Shown here one piece after another: positions 12,670 through 19,176 of a DNA stretch of 41,187 nt. The position numbers and the translations under genes were made by a program. Source of the stretch: Prochlorococcus sp. AG-335-I21 (GTDB taxonomy: Bacteria; Cyanobacteriota; Cyanobacteriia; PCC-6307; Cyanobiaceae); contig QBZO01000005.1 in the NCBI GenBank assembly GCA_003282225.1, positions 1 to 41,187 of the forward strand, in the 5' to 3' direction. Numbering within the stretch: the first letter of the stretch is position 1; the number at the start of each line of letters is the position of its first letter. The notes below the pieces were generated by a model. It was not told the DNA's origin and did not search any database. It saw only the letters and a list, made by a program, of their open reading frames with translations.

Positions 12670-13458
12670 TTAAAATTTATTTCCAATTTTTGGAATTATT
12701 AACGAAGCAACGCAAATAACACTTATTGCAGGACCAGGAGATAAGTTAAAAACAATTGAAAGAATAAAACCCAATAGAGAAATACAAAGTCCAAAGAATG
12801 AAGATCTCATCATTGCAATCCTAAGACTTTGTGCTTTATCAAGTCCTAATAAAGTAGGTGTTGAGAGTAATGCAATTACTAAAATTACTCCAACAGCTGA
12901 CATTGAACTAACGATAACTAGTGCCGTCGTGAAACTTAGAGCTAGGTTTAACAAAGACACATTTATTCCACTAGCTGAGGCGCCCTCTGGATCTAATCCT
13001 ACATATACAACTTTTTCATATCCGAACGTTACTAATAAAATGAATGCCAGAAAAGCAATAATTGTTCTTAACAAATCGCCAAGGTTTGCTGTTAATAAAT
13101 CCCCAAATAATACAGCCTCTAAATCAATTCTTATCCCAAGAAGTGGAATTAGTAAAACCCCAAAACCAAGCATGCCAGCAAGAATTGTATTCATAACTGC
13201 TTCATAATTTTCACTTTTTTTATTAGTTAAACTCTCTGCAATAATTGAACCAACAAGACCACTTATAACTCCCCCAATTGAGGGATGAATACCTAGAGCT
13301 AGAGCTAGAGCTAGTCCTGGTAAAACACAATGAGAAATTAAATTTACTTGTAATAGTCTTCTATGAGTAATCAATACCGTTCCCATAGCTGGGCATAAGA
13401 TTCCAGAGAAAATAGTAATTATTAAAGGAATTAACCACCAGTTGTTTAAAAAAGACAT
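12670..13458 (-). CDS. znuB: zinc/metal ABC transporter permease (ZnuB-like)
   Basis: ABC-3 family permease: LITHRRLLQVNLISHCVLPGLALALALGIHPSIGG...; clustered with znuC, znuA and a Fur-family regulator. Confidence 0.88.
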   Translation of the reverse strand: MSFLNNWWLIPLIITIFSGILCPAMGTVLITHRRLLQVNLISHCVLPGLALALALGIHPSIGGVISGLVGSIIAESLTNKKSENYEAVMNTILAGMLGFGVLLIPLLGIRIDLEAVLFGDLLTANLGDLLRTIIAFLAFILLVTFGYEKVVYVGLDPEGASASGINVSLLNLALSFTTALVIVSSMSAVGVILVIALLSTPTLLGLDKAQSLRIAMMRSSFFGLCISLLGFILSIVFNLSPGPAISVICVASLIIPKIGNKF

Positions 13459-13514
13459 TAATCGTATTATTCGTTATGATCAAAAAAACGGGACATTAAA
13501 AGATCTTGAAAATA

Positions 13515-13910
13515 ATGGGAATCAACCCTGACATTACCCAACGACAAGAGCAACTTCTTGAAGAACTCAAAAAATGTGATGATGAATTGAGTGGTCAAGA
13601 ATTGCATAGGCAATTGATTATCGATGGCAAATCTATGGGTTTGACAACAGTTTATAGAAATCTTCAAGTTCTTATAAAACATGGATTAATTCGATCTAGA
13701 CATCTTCCAACAGGTGAAGTACTTTACACTCCTGTTGATAGAGATATTCACCATCTGACATGTGTTCAATGTGGAGAAACCTCCAAAATGGAAGGTTGTC
13801 CGGTAAAAGATATTCATAGTCCAAAGAAAAACCCAAAAAAATTTCAACTTTTGTTTCATACACTTGAATATTTCGGCCTCTGCCAAAATTGTTACCAAGC
13901 TCAGAGTTAA
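13515..13910 (+). CDS. zur: Fur-family regulator, probably Zur
   Basis: TTVYRNLQVLIKHGLIRSRHL...HHLTCVQCG...FGLCQNC; ORF track start 13506 is TTG, with ATG at 13515 more likely. Confidence 0.85.
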   Translation: MGINPDITQRQEQLLEELKKCDDELSGQELHRQLIIDGKSMGLTTVYRNLQVLIKHGLIRSRHLPTGEVLYTPVDRDIHHLTCVQCGETSKMEGCPVKDIHSPKKNPKKFQLLFHTLEYFGLCQNCYQAQS

Positions 13911-13924
13911 ATTTAAAAATATTT

Positions 13925-14695
13925 TTAATCACAAGAATTATTTTCTTTTAAAGTACTAATATTAAGATCATCTAATTTGCCTTGTATTGAATTGGGAGTT
14001 CCGGATGCTAATACTGTTTTATCTAAAACAACTACATGATCATAACTATTGAGAGATGAGCCCCAATCATGACTACTTATAAACAAAGCTAAGCCTGCAT
14101 CTGCAAGTTGACGGACTATCTTAAGAAAATCGTCTTTTGCGGGAGGATCTAATGCAGCACATGGTTCATCTAGCAGAAGAATTCTTGCAGGAGACATTAA
14201 AGTTTTAGCCAAAAGTGCTCTTTGTTGTTGTCCACCTGAAAGAGAATCAAGTCTTCTATTTGCAAGATTGGAAATGCCAACTCTTTGCATTGTTGCTTCC
14301 AATTCGCAACATTTATTAACCCAAGACTTTGGATTTGCGAGAAGAGCCTTTATTTGGAATGGATTATTATTTTTTGATTTTGAATATTTAATTTGACCTA
14401 ATGAGACTAATTTTTCAACAGTAATAGGAAATTTCCAATTCATTGAGCTTCTTTGTGGCATAAGTGCAACCTGGGATCTAGTTCTAACTAAACTTTCACC
14501 ATCAATAGTTATATCTCCAAAATCAGGATTATTTTGTCCTTGCAATAATTTCAAAAGAGTTGATTTACCAGCTCCATTTGGCCCAACAAGAGCAGTTAAT
14601 GTTCCTGGTTTTATTTGAACTGAAACCTTATTTAAAGCTGGCTTGCTTTGTTTTGTATAAGAATAAGTTAAATTATCTGCAAGTAAAGTAGCCAT
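13925..14695 (-). CDS. znuC: zinc/metal ABC transporter ATPase (ZnuC-like)
   Basis: Walker A GPNGAGKS, signature LSGGQQQR, Walker B ILLLDEP. Confidence 0.9.
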   Translation of the reverse strand: MATLLADNLTYSYTKQSKPALNKVSVQIKPGTLTALVGPNGAGKSTLLKLLQGQNNPDFGDITIDGESLVRTRSQVALMPQRSSMNWKFPITVEKLVSLGQIKYSKSKNNNPFQIKALLANPKSWVNKCCELEATMQRVGISNLANRRLDSLSGGQQQRALLAKTLMSPARILLLDEPCAALDPPAKDDFLKIVRQLADAGLALFISSHDWGSSLNSYDHVVVLDKTVLASGTPNSIQGKLDDLNISTLKENNSCD

Positions 14696-14795: not shown

Positions 14796-14812
14796 AAAAT
14801 GATTATCATTTT
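14796..14812. promoter_or_regulatory. putative Zur box in the znuC-znuA divergent region
   Basis: Perfect 8-1-8 palindrome AAAATGAT T ATCATTTT. Confidence 0.7.
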
Positions 14813-14831: not shown

Positions 14832-16670
14832 ATGTCAACTTTCAAAAAGCTTTTATTAAATAAAAAAGGTTCAGGTAATTCAATTATTAAAAATTCAGTA
14901 ATCGCAGGCACTATAATATTTACTGGTTTTGGTCAAGATGTTTTGGCCAAAGGAAAGTCATATGTAGCTGTAGAACCGCTTGTTTGTGATTTAGTAAAAT
15001 CAATAGCGTTACCTTCAGATAAAGTTACCTGCTTAGTGGATAGAAAGCAGGATGTACATGACTTAAAAATCAATCCAAGACAAGCTCAATTACTAAATAG
15101 TGCAGATAAGGTATTCACTCTTGGTAAAGAGATGACTCCCACAATGAAAAACTGGGAAGGAAAGTCCAATACTGTTGTTGTTGGTGTTAGCGCTATTGAA
15201 GTTGAAAATCCTTCAAGTGAAGAAGGTGGCGCTTTCGAATGGGCTGGAGTTTTTGATCTTAAAGCTGGTTCGTACAAATGGACTTTTGCAAAAGTTGATG
15301 GAGAATATGCGGATCCAGCAATGAAAATGGTTGTTCTCAAATCTGGGGATATAGAAGCATCTGAAGAATTAGCCGAAACCATGCTTGGATCAGATGAAAA
15401 TATTGATAAAAGCGATGGTGGAAAACTTATGGAGAGTGATAAGGCATATGTTCTGAACTTTGATCAAAAGAAAGAAGTTACAGAATTCAACGTTGAAATA
15501 AAAAATGATGGCAAATATGCATTTTTTACAGAACATATGCCTTTTGAATTTGAAGCAGATGAACATTTTTTAAAAGATCTTGCAAAAAATGATGTCGAGC
15601 CAGTTGCACAGGAACCAGACATGGGAAGTCATAGTGAGCATGGAGCAGAAGGATTTGAATGGGCAGGAACTTTTGAATTAGATGAGGGATCATATAAATG
15701 GTCGTTTGCAAAAGTAGATGGTGAGTATGCAGATCCTGCGATGAAAATGGTTATTCTCAAGTCGGGTGATATTGAATCATCTGAGGAACTTGCCAAAGAA
15801 TTATTAGAATCTGAGTCTTCTATTAACAAAACTAATAATGATGTCCTTGTTGCCAGCTCTGAAGCCTTCTCTCTTAATTTTGACCAGAACAAGGATTTAA
15901 CCGTTTTTAATGTAGATATTAAAAAGAAAGGAAAATATACTTTCTTTACTGAACATATGCCTTTTGAATTCGAGTCAGATGAACACTTCTTTAAAGATGT
16001 TTCTAATTCTGATGTCGAACCCATAGCACAAGTACCTGATGAAGGTGGTGGGCATCATCATCATCATCATGGACATGGCAGCTTAGACCCTCATGTATGG
16101 CATGATCCAAGTAACATTATAAAAATGAGTTCTGTTGTATCAAAAAATCTAAAGAAAGATATATCCATTTTTAATAGAAAAGATAGAAAAGCTATAAATG
16201 AAAGAATCGATAGTACTGAATCTATTCTTGGCGACCTAAAGGGATGGATAGTTGATCAGGTTAGTACCATTCCAGAGTCAAACAGAGTAATAGTCTCAAA
16301 ACACAAAGCAATGGATTACTACGGAACTGCTTTTGGTCTGGAGACAGTAAGTCTATTAGATTTTCTTGGCGATTCATCAAGCTTAAGGCCTGAAAATATC
16401 AAGACAACTTTAACCATGCTTGAAACAGAAAATGTTAAGGCAATATTCCCTGAACAAATTCCTACATCAAAGTTATTAAAAAACCTAAGTAGGCAAAGTT
16501 CAGTTCCATTAGCTAATAGTCAAATATTTGTAGATGGATTAATGATGACGGGTAATACAGTTTCTGTTGCTGTTCACAATACATGTAATATTGTTGATTC
16601 ATTGGGTGGATCATGTGATAAGAAAGCAGGCAATGAGTTGGAAAGCAGCTGGAGTTTTCAAAATAATTAA
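14832..16670 (+). CDS. znuA: zinc ABC transporter substrate-binding protein (ZnuA-like) with two inserted FEWAG modules
   Basis: ZnuA N-terminal (VAVEPLVCDLVKSIA..VHDLKINPRQAQLLNSADKVF), His-rich loop GGGHHHHHHGHG, DPHVWHDP..., plus two ~129-aa repeats at 15234..15620 and 15654..16040. Confidence 0.9.
   Translation: MSTFKKLLLNKKGSGNSIIKNSVIAGTIIFTGFGQDVLAKGKSYVAVEPLVCDLVKSIALPSDKVTCLVDRKQDVHDLKINPRQAQLLNSADKVFTLGKEMTPTMKNWEGKSNTVVVGVSAIEVENPSSEEGGAFEWAGVFDLKAGSYKWTFAKVDGEYADPAMKMVVLKSGDIEASEELAETMLGSDENIDKSDGGKLMESDKAYVLNFDQKKEVTEFNVEIKNDGKYAFFTEHMPFEFEADEHFLKDLAKNDVEPVAQEPDMGSHSEHGAEGFEWAGTFELDEGSYKWSFAKVDGEYADPAMKMVILKSGDIESSEELAKELLESESSINKTNNDVLVASSEAFSLNFDQNKDLTVFNVDIKKKGKYTFFTEHMPFEFESDEHFFKDVSNSDVEPIAQVPDEGGGHHHHHHGHGSLDPHVWHDPSNIIKMSSVVSKNLKKDISIFNRKDRKAINERIDSTESILGDLKGWIVDQVSTIPESNRVIVSKHKAMDYYGTAFGLETVSLLDFLGDSSSLRPENIKTTLTMLETENVKAIFPEQIPTSKLLKNLSRQSSVPLANSQIFVDGLMMTGNTVSVAVHNTCNIVDSLGGSCDKKAGNELESSWSFQNN
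15234..16040 (+). repeat. tandem in-frame duplication (2 x ~387 bp) within znuA
   Basis: FEWAG...SYKW(T/S)FAKVDGEYADPAMKMV(V/I)LKSGDIE...FFTEHMPFEFE(A/S)DEHF... in both copies, each 129 aa. Confidence 0.9.
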
Positions 16671-16682
16671 ATTTTTCTATTA

Positions 16683-16699
16683 ATAATGGTTTTCATTAT
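16683..16699. promoter_or_regulatory. putative second Zur box upstream of the COG0523 GTPase
   Basis: ATAATG-GTTTT-CATTAT; 13/17 positions identical to the 14796..14812 palindrome. Confidence 0.55.
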
Positions 16700-16756
16700 C
16701 AAATAATGTCTAGTATATTGATTGCTAGACATTATTTTAATTAGATCAAATAATAG

Positions 16757-18115
16757 ATGAGTATCAACGAAAAAGTTCCTGTTACAATCCTTACTGGATT
16801 CTTAGGCTCAGGTAAAACAACTCTTCTTAATAGAATATTAAGTGAAGAGCATGGTAAGAGAATCGCTGTAATTGAGAACGAATATGGAGAAGTTGGAATT
16901 GATCAAGGATTGGTTATAAACGCCGATGAAGAAGTATTTGAAATGTCTAATGGTTGCATTTGTTGTACTGTTCGCGGAGATCTTATTAGAGTCCTTGGTA
17001 ATTTAATGAAAAGAAGGGATAAATTTGACTACGTTTTAGTTGAAACAACTGGCTTAGCTGACCCTGGTCCTGTTGCTCAAACATTTTTTATGGATGAAGA
17101 AATTAGTTCTGAATTCACACTTGATGGAATAGTTACTTTAGTTGATGCAGCTCATATTGATCAACAACTTGGGCGTAGTGATGAGAGTTCTGAGCAAGTG
17201 GCATTTGCAGATGTCTTAGTCCTTAATAAAACTGATTTAGTCTCAGATGATGCTCTTGATAACCTTGAATCAAGATTAAGAGATATGAATCGAATGACGC
17301 GTATTATTCGAGCAGAGAAAGCAGAAGTTCCTATTGAGACAGTTTTAAATTTGAGTGCATTCGATCTTGACCAAATTTTAAAGCGTAGACCAACTTTCTT
17401 AGAACCTGAATATCCTTTTGAATGGTCAGGAGTTTATGAGCTTGAGCCAGGAAAATACGAATTAAAACTTGAAGAAGGGCCAGATCCTTTAATGTCCTTA
17501 GTAGCTTTTGCTAATCAAGGATTTAGTGAAGAAGAATTAAAAGAGGGTGCAGAAGCTTCTGTAAGACTATATGCAGAAAAAGCTAAAAACTTAGAACCTG
17601 GAAATACTATTCCATATGATGAGCATGTAAGTCTTAAATTGCAAAACAAAGGATCTAAATCTTTTATTTTGGATGTTGAAAAAGCGTCAAAAGTTGGATT
17701 TTTCACACAACATACTGCTGAAGAATTCAATATGAAAGTGCTAAAAATAGATTCCCAAAATAATGTTAAGGAAATTCCTTTTAAAACTGAAAGAAACTGG
17801 GTCGCAGAACATGAACATGATGATGAAGTTGGATCAATTGCAATAGAGCGTTTTGGAGATGTTGATCCTGAAAAGTTGAATACTTGGATGGGAAGGCTTC
17901 TTTCCGAGAAAGGAGTTGATATATTCAGAACAAAAGGGTTTATTAGTTATTCTGGCAACCCACGCCGAATAGTATTTCAAGGAGTTCATATGTTATTTAC
18001 TGCCCAACCAGATAAAGAATGGGGAAATGAACCACGAAGAAATCAACTCGTGTTTATTGGAAGAAATCTAAATGAAAAAGAAATGCAAGAGGGATTTGAT
18101 AAGTGCCTGATATAG
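16757..18115 (+). CDS. COG0523/CobW-family GTPase, predicted zinc metallochaperone, with internal FEWSG module
   Basis: GFLGSGKTTLLNRIL, NGCICCTVRGDL (CxCC), NKTD; FEWSGVYELEPGKYELKLEEG..DPLM..FFTQHTAEEF; C-terminal CobW_C-like region. Confidence 0.9.
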   Translation: MSINEKVPVTILTGFLGSGKTTLLNRILSEEHGKRIAVIENEYGEVGIDQGLVINADEEVFEMSNGCICCTVRGDLIRVLGNLMKRRDKFDYVLVETTGLADPGPVAQTFFMDEEISSEFTLDGIVTLVDAAHIDQQLGRSDESSEQVAFADVLVLNKTDLVSDDALDNLESRLRDMNRMTRIIRAEKAEVPIETVLNLSAFDLDQILKRRPTFLEPEYPFEWSGVYELEPGKYELKLEEGPDPLMSLVAFANQGFSEEELKEGAEASVRLYAEKAKNLEPGNTIPYDEHVSLKLQNKGSKSFILDVEKASKVGFFTQHTAEEFNMKVLKIDSQNNVKEIPFKTERNWVAEHEHDDEVGSIAIERFGDVDPEKLNTWMGRLLSEKGVDIFRTKGFISYSGNPRRIVFQGVHMLFTAQPDKEWGNEPRRNQLVFIGRNLNEKEMQEGFDKCLI

Positions 18116-19176
18116 AATTTTTTAGCCCTAGAGGCATGTTTCATGAGGGATGGTCTGCTGAAGTTGATGATTATGCAATAGTTTGTGGTTGGGCTTTAAA
18201 AGGGAAACTCTTTATCGTTGGTGACGTAGTTGGAGGGCTTTATGGGTTTGAAGGAGATACAGGAAAGCTTATTTGGAAAAAGGATAAAGCCCATTCCGGA
18301 GGTCTTCTTGCAATGTCTATCCATCCGAATGGGGAGATTTTTGCAACTTCAGGGCAAGACGGAATAGTTCGAATTTTAAATTGCAATAATGGGGAGGAAA
18401 TTAAAGCCATTAAACTTGGTAAAGGTTGGGTAGAACATTTAAGTTGGTCAAATGGAGGTTTATATTTAGCCGTAGCTTTTTCCAAAAAAGTATATGTATT
18501 TAATCAAGATGGTAATGAACAATGGGGTTCAGAAGAACATCCGAGTACAGTAAGTGCCATATCGTGGTCTAATAAGAATGAATTAGCAACTGCATGCTAC
18601 GGACGCGTAACTTTCTTTGATGTAGCAAACAAAAAGACTAATCAGAAACTTGAATGGCAAGGTTCACTAGTTTCGATGCAGTTAAGCCCTGATGGAGATA
18701 TTGTCGCCTGTGGGAGTCAAGATAATTCGGTACATTTCTGGCGTAGATCAACTGGACTTGATGCTGAAATGACAGGTTATCCTGGAAAGCCTTCTCACCT
18801 TTCCTTCGATGATACTGGCATGCTATTAGCAACTAGTGGTAGCGAAAGAATTACAGTATGGAGTTTTTCAGGAAATGGCCCTGAAGGAACAATGCCGGGA
18901 GAATTATGTCATCATACTGAACCAATTTCTAGCCTAGCTTTTTCAAACAAAGGTTTGCTAGTTGCTTCAGGTTCAAGAGATGGTTCAGTAGTAGCTAGTT
19001 TTCTTAAAAACGACGGAAATGGGGATCCTGTAGGAGCTGCTTTTGCTGGAGATTTAGTTGGAGATATTGCTTGGAGACCCGATGACTGCGCTTTAGCTGC
19101 AATTAATGCTAAGGGTGTTGTAACCGTTTGGAATTTTAAAGTCCGAACAAGTTCCTCTTCAAAAGGGTTCAAGTAA
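18103..19176 (+). CDS. WD40/beta-propeller repeat protein
   Basis: GTG start overlapping the GTPase by 13 bp; repeats such as IHPNGEIFATSGQDGIVRILN, LSPDGDIVACGSQDNSVHFWR, FSNKGLLVASGSRDGSV. Confidence 0.85.
   Translation: MPDIEFFSPRGMFHEGWSAEVDDYAIVCGWALKGKLFIVGDVVGGLYGFEGDTGKLIWKKDKAHSGGLLAMSIHPNGEIFATSGQDGIVRILNCNNGEEIKAIKLGKGWVEHLSWSNGGLYLAVAFSKKVYVFNQDGNEQWGSEEHPSTVSAISWSNKNELATACYGRVTFFDVANKKTNQKLEWQGSLVSMQLSPDGDIVACGSQDNSVHFWRRSTGLDAEMTGYPGKPSHLSFDDTGMLLATSGSERITVWSFSGNGPEGTMPGELCHHTEPISSLAFSNKGLLVASGSRDGSVVASFLKNDGNGDPVGAAFAGDLVGDIAWRPDDCALAAINAKGVVTVWNFKVRTSSSSKGFK

Follow-up and report, generated by a model that had tools for sequence, protein, structure and literature searches.

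The window analysed here, meaning the whole stretch of 41,187 nucleotides, is a contig of a Prochlorococcus-type genome (assembly of 0.94 Mb, 59% complete). It carries the genes, in order, znuB (-), a FUR-family gene (+), znuC (-), znuA (+), a COG0523 GTPase gene (+) and a WD40 gene (+), the coordinates of which are collected in Table 1. The product of znuA belongs to the ZnuA-type binders, with a PF01297 score of 130.9 bits against a cut-off of 29, and with ABC-3 and ABC_tran genes adjoining, while the GTPase scored 207 bits with PF02492 and 86 bits with CobW_C, and has both the GFLGSGKTT and CICC motifs in its sequence. The WD40 gene lies directly 3' of the GTPase gene, and this pairing is seen again in Proteobacteria and in a different class of Cyanobacteriota.

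The divergent promoter has a FUR gene nearby and contains a perfect palindrome, a putative Zur box. Its 13 bp core, AATGATNATCATT, has a single exact instance in the assembly examined, and since one-mismatch matches in the genome were in no excess over the control, only the exact site was used. In Synechococcus WH8102, Zur represses the counterpart of this cluster, and with it two uncharacterised genes that follow znuA (PMC9337993); going by gene order, these two are presumably the GTPase and WD40 genes.

Table 1. Genes, promoter element and module copies of the znu cluster, with window coordinates
Feature	Coordinates	Strand	Basis or remarks
znuB, ABC-3 permease	12670..13458	-	domain search
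FUR-family regulator, probable Zur	13506..13910	+	PF01475
znuC, ABC ATPase	13925..14695	-	domain search (ABC_tran)
Perfect palindrome AAAATGATTATCATTTT, Zur/Fur-box-like	14796..14812	.	between divergent znuC and znuA
znuA, cluster A-I metal solute-binding protein, 612 aa	14832..16670	+	PF01297
Module copy 1, ZnuA aa ~134-257	15231..15602	+	candidate ligands E 15237-15239, D 15312-15314, H 15534-15536, E 15546-15548
Module copy 2, ZnuA aa ~274-397	15651..16022	+	candidate ligands E 15657-15659, D 15732-15734, H 15954-15956, E 15966-15968
HHHHHH run, ZnuA His-rich loop, after module 2	16053..16070	+	
COG0523 (CobW-like) G3E GTPase, 452 aa	16757..18115	+	PF02492, PF07683, Walker A GFLGSGKTT, CICC
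GTPase module copy, aa ~220-332	17414..17755	+	candidate ligands E 17420-17422, D 17483-17485, H 17711-17713, E 17723-17725
WD40 beta-propeller protein, N-terminal signal not evident	18103..19176	+	

One domain in ZnuA and in the GTPase

A module of about 120 aa is present twice in ZnuA and once in the COG0523 GTPase, and these are the only three across the whole assembly examined. The sequence-only reading, which had described an FEW-x-G module in both proteins, was correct as to number and position: the FEW motifs start at 15234 and 15654 (ZnuA residues 135 and 275) and at 17417 (GTPase residue 221). It had also placed the GTPase copy between the G domain and the C-terminal domain, and this agrees with the domain limits, the module lying between PF02492 (aa 8-184) and PF07683 (aa 359-451). 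The two ZnuA copies share 67% identity, and ZnuA-GTPase pairs 29-33% (blastp 37 and 42 bits).

The proposed similarity between the ZnuA and GTPase modules was examined with a held-out profile, built from 10 GTPase copies only and scored on ZnuA copies and on 5,000 shuffled modules. The shuffles reached 10.7 bits at most, against 51-57 bits (E 1e-14 to 1e-16) for five cyanobacterial ZnuA copies, so that the similarity is significant. With the reverse profile, made from ZnuA copies only, every GTPase copy scored above all shuffles, the weakest at 14.2 versus 12.4 bits. This profile homology supports the claim that a periplasmic binder and a predicted cytosolic chaperone share a homologous domain. 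One detail of the sequence-only reading was wrong: the terminal 'FEADEH' was found to be confined to the cyanobacterial ZnuA copies, and the invariant part of this end is H-x3-E-F.

An ordinary CobW linker was ruled out as the identity of the GTPase segment by comparison with paralogues, YjiA and plasmid homologues. The genome encodes two further COG0523 proteins, of 374 and 353 aa, whose linkers differ and contain no module, and in Escherichia coli YjiA the G domain is joined directly to the C domain, with no insert. Among 1,429 plasmid records with COG0523 homologues, a single stretch covering 80% or more of the window GTPase was present in only 2. Nearly all plasmid homologues are without the module, and close homologues free of it exist, such as the Dolichospermum and Leptolyngbya plasmid copies. 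COG0523 pieces were also present in phage records, none of them spanning the full GTPase.

Hosts, insertion site and history of the module

The module was found in 17 of 248 sampled genomes of Cyanobacteriota, 13 of them from the window's own family and four from another class, the latter carrying the GTPase type only. Plasmid records added four ZnuA-type proteins and three stand-alone proteins of Halobacteria, a membrane protein of Alicyclobacillus (Bacillota), and GTPases of Pantoea and Paraburkholderia (Pseudomonadota). This brings the total to four phyla in two domains of life. Because the broad searches covered one phylum, the Cyanobacteriota, together with plasmid records, the true range is probably wider. 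Scans of viral contigs gave no relative of the module.

Most of the hosts and their neighbours are metal proteins. The haloarchaeal ZnuA-type genes adjoin those of metal ABC transporters, accompanied in two annotated records by COG0523-type GTPase genes; GTPase-type copies adjoin WD40 genes in the window, in genomes G061, G087 and G102, and in Pantoea and Paraburkholderia. Genes for ZIP, NicO, Nramp and cation-efflux proteins are further neighbours. His-rich ends flank the module in all three stand-alone copies, two of which (L135 and L140) have no clear metal genes among their neighbours.

In both ZnuA lineages the insertion point is the His-rich loop, and the module occupies the site of metal-recruiting His loops. 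Single-copy ZnuA proteins have, ahead of the module, a His/Asp array in which the number of His ranges from 2 to 24 (median 15). Among two-copy proteins, the window's included, the array has been replaced by a 12-residue linker free of His and an extra module, and the upstream array is missing in 7/7 of these proteins. L068, which has YEW in its second copy and had been tallied by the script as single-copy, is of the two-copy kind. As all two-copy proteins share the linker, the change from array to module looks like a single event. Copy 2 is the nearest of the copies to the single copy of relatives. In one relative, L127, the array is retained and the module is absent, and another type of ZnuA (L085 and others) has the array and no module. 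Nine of 76 Prochlorococcus loci have a ZnuA without the module, which is therefore dispensable in some strains.

A tree of 23 modules, with AU tests on alternative groupings, separated the GTPase copies from the extracytosolic copies with support of 92/87, which is below the strict mark. Grouping the cyanobacterial ZnuA copies with the cyanobacterial CobW copies in one clade was rejected (AU p=0.013), and grouping ZnuA with all CobW copies was not (AU p=0.132). Local exchange between neighbouring znuA and GTPase genes was discarded on the first of these results, which indicates no recent exchange of the module between the two window genes. The earlier suggestion of a module moving within one regulon also found no support in its spread over four phyla and two domains of life or in the position of the copies on separate sides of the tree. 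Two old branches of the module appear to meet in one gene cluster.

Conservation, predicted fold and possible function

Over 172 distinct modules (at 80% identity, an effective number of 25), conservation was 100% for E, H, E and F, 99.9% for G, and 96% for D and P; strong conservation was also seen at W, G, L, P and F. The only change of the D that was found is to N, at this otherwise conserved position, in a broken GTPase gene on a Pantoea soli plasmid (L141). The four near-invariant E/D/H/E positions would suit a metal site. On the other side, their invariance may mirror a structural network, and three carboxylates with one His and no Cys are unlike the usual tight Zn sites.

The AlphaFold2 prediction for ZnuA copy 2, from a 66-row alignment, was confident, with a mean pLDDT of 87.5 and a pTM of 0.81 in the best of five models, which diverge down to a pLDDT of 57.3. 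The predicted fold is a beta-sandwich with one longer helix, in which H-x3-E would span a short helix, and the strand order would place E and D together at one end of the sheet. The model of the full-length GTPase reached a pLDDT of 47, its alignment being too shallow, and its agreement in the module region is limited to the order of strands and helices. Searches of Pfam-A, NCBIfam and PHROGs gave no significant match for 22 diverse modules or the stand-alone proteins, and ZinT was absent among the Pfam matches. Against the PDB, the best sequence match by hmmsearch had E=1, and Foldseek found nothing at E<=0.001 among the structures, the best being 0.085.

The favoured explanation, held with moderate confidence, is that the module is a small, portable accessory domain that binds a transition metal, most likely Zn here and Co or Ni elsewhere, and concentrates it for its host. 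The site would be made up of the FEW glutamate, where strand 1 begins, the DP aspartate, in the loop leading into strand 3, and the H and E of the H-x3-E that follows strand 8. In ZnuA, the module sits in the His-rich loop by the metal cleft, where it would capture zinc from the periplasm for delivery to the cleft. Within the GTPase, it would hold metal near the CxCC/GTP-dependent site. A small shared ligand is favoured because the hosts lie on both sides of the membrane and there is no partner common to all of them. By analogy, the module is proposed to work like the ZinT domain of AdcA or like His-loops. It is probably a widespread, uncharacterised metal-binding building block. The broader proposition, to which about even chances are given, is of an undescribed, ancient transition-metal-binding domain in cytosolic metallochaperone GTPases, extracytosolic metal binders, a membrane protein and free lipoproteins of bacteria and archaea, serving on both membrane sides of one uptake pathway and interchangeable with His-rich arrays.

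The main rival is a docking or oligomerisation module that binds no metal, in which the invariant residues form a structural or interaction network tying the host to a partner, which for ZnuA could be another uptake component and for CobW the WD40 protein. It is favoured by the recurrent pairing of module-bearing CobW genes with a WD40 gene, a classic scaffold, and by the strong conservation of W, G, L, P and F as well. However, the haloarchaeal ZnuA, the stand-alone lipoproteins and the Alicyclobacillus membrane protein, which belong to another compartment, have no WD40 neighbour, no partner is shared by all hosts, and diverging docking surfaces would not be expected to keep E/D/H/E in both cytosolic and secreted copies, so that docking is considered unlikely.

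Even less probable is that the ligand is a metal complex or another small ligand (a metallophore, glycan or nucleotide), as in PA14, CBM and GOLD-like sandwiches. A faint, non-significant CBM_35 similarity of the whole ZnuA (E 0.0093, below the cut-off), a PA14 match at E 0.1, and a weak structural likeness to the PA14-type Epa1A (TM 0.49, E 0.25) and to a GOLD domain point in that direction, but these profile and fold scores are all sub-threshold and at noise level, glycans or metallophores are unlikely ligands for the same domain in a cytosolic GTPase, and there is no near-invariant aromatic cluster beyond W. Chance, low-complexity convergence or an ordinary CobW linker, for which the low ZnuA-GTPase identity within the window might speak, is refuted by the held-out profile scores and by the paralogue, YjiA and plasmid comparisons given above.

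Relation to known systems

A close functional parallel to the preferred metal-binding reading is the ZinT-like C-terminal domain of streptococcal AdcA, likewise an extra metal-binding domain on a cluster A-I ZnuA-type binder, which recruits Zn under limitation together with a His-rich loop and is stabilised by Co and Ni as well (PMC7858048). ZinT is, however, a separate family, fused at the C-terminus and with a three-His Zn site (PMC7858048), whereas the module is inserted within the loop, its invariant His is a single one, and a cytosolic GTPase carries it as well. The His-rich loop of ZnuA, for example that of Synechocystis (PMC8786288), has the same position in the host, and in the two-copy lineage the module stands in place of the His/Asp array, but the loop is of low complexity while the module is a conserved domain that is predicted to be folded.

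The clustering of CobW, WD40 and znuABC genes is already known, having been reported in 2009: in the parts of Haas et al. consulted (PMC2770081), prokaryotic genes of COG0523 subfamily 5 are described as clustered with WD40-repeat genes and znuABC, some of them downstream of Zur sites. The gene order in the window fits subfamily 5 as characterised there, a likeness that is one of WD40 and znuABC neighbours, not of tree placement, and the inserted domain is not mentioned in those parts on subfamily 5. No published account of the module was found in the literature searched, where coverage of COG0523 reviews was incomplete, and its absence is not proven.

A Zur-linked, extracytosolic Zn protein of Anabaena, ZepA (PMC10957091), has an Ig-like beta-sandwich domain in a metal context, but, compared by description, it differs in having a signal peptide and PEP-CTERM, in its two domains, and in its reported absence from Archaea. 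The zinc protein AztD (PMC6689063) is extracytosolic and hands Zn to a ZnuA-type binder, and the WD40 protein of the window is a possible parallel; AztD is periplasmic or at the surface, while the window protein shows no signal peptide and is paired with the GTPase. Diatom ZCRP-B was rejected as a relative, being NikA-like and not ZnuA-like (PMC9010474).

The module touches on two open questions, how COG0523 GTPases are supplied with metal and how picocyanobacteria of the open ocean cope with very little zinc. A domain common to a zinc catcher outside and a GTPase inside offers a target that is small, can be expressed, and has four residues for mutagenesis. It also gives 'uncharacterised' Zur-controlled genes, such as the two that follow znuA in Synechococcus WH8102, a link to an activity that can be tested, and with a family model the annotation of proteins in at least four phyla would change.

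Several individual loci deserve mention. An apparent 873-aa double ZnuA frame (L028/L040, genome G280) contains an N run and is probably an assembly artefact. Distant module-bearing GTPase genes at L036-L039 and at L158 and L159 have ZIP or NicO transporter genes within a few kb. In the Alicyclobacillus membrane protein (L132:4794-5705), the module is inserted after a His stretch; its HSILPDH motif resembles the HX4DH of nickel transporters, yet it has no Pfam NicO match, so that it is called a membrane protein only. The third stand-alone haloarchaeal protein (L136:4875-5426) is lipoprotein-like and is encoded directly after a urease operon, making a link to nickel possible.
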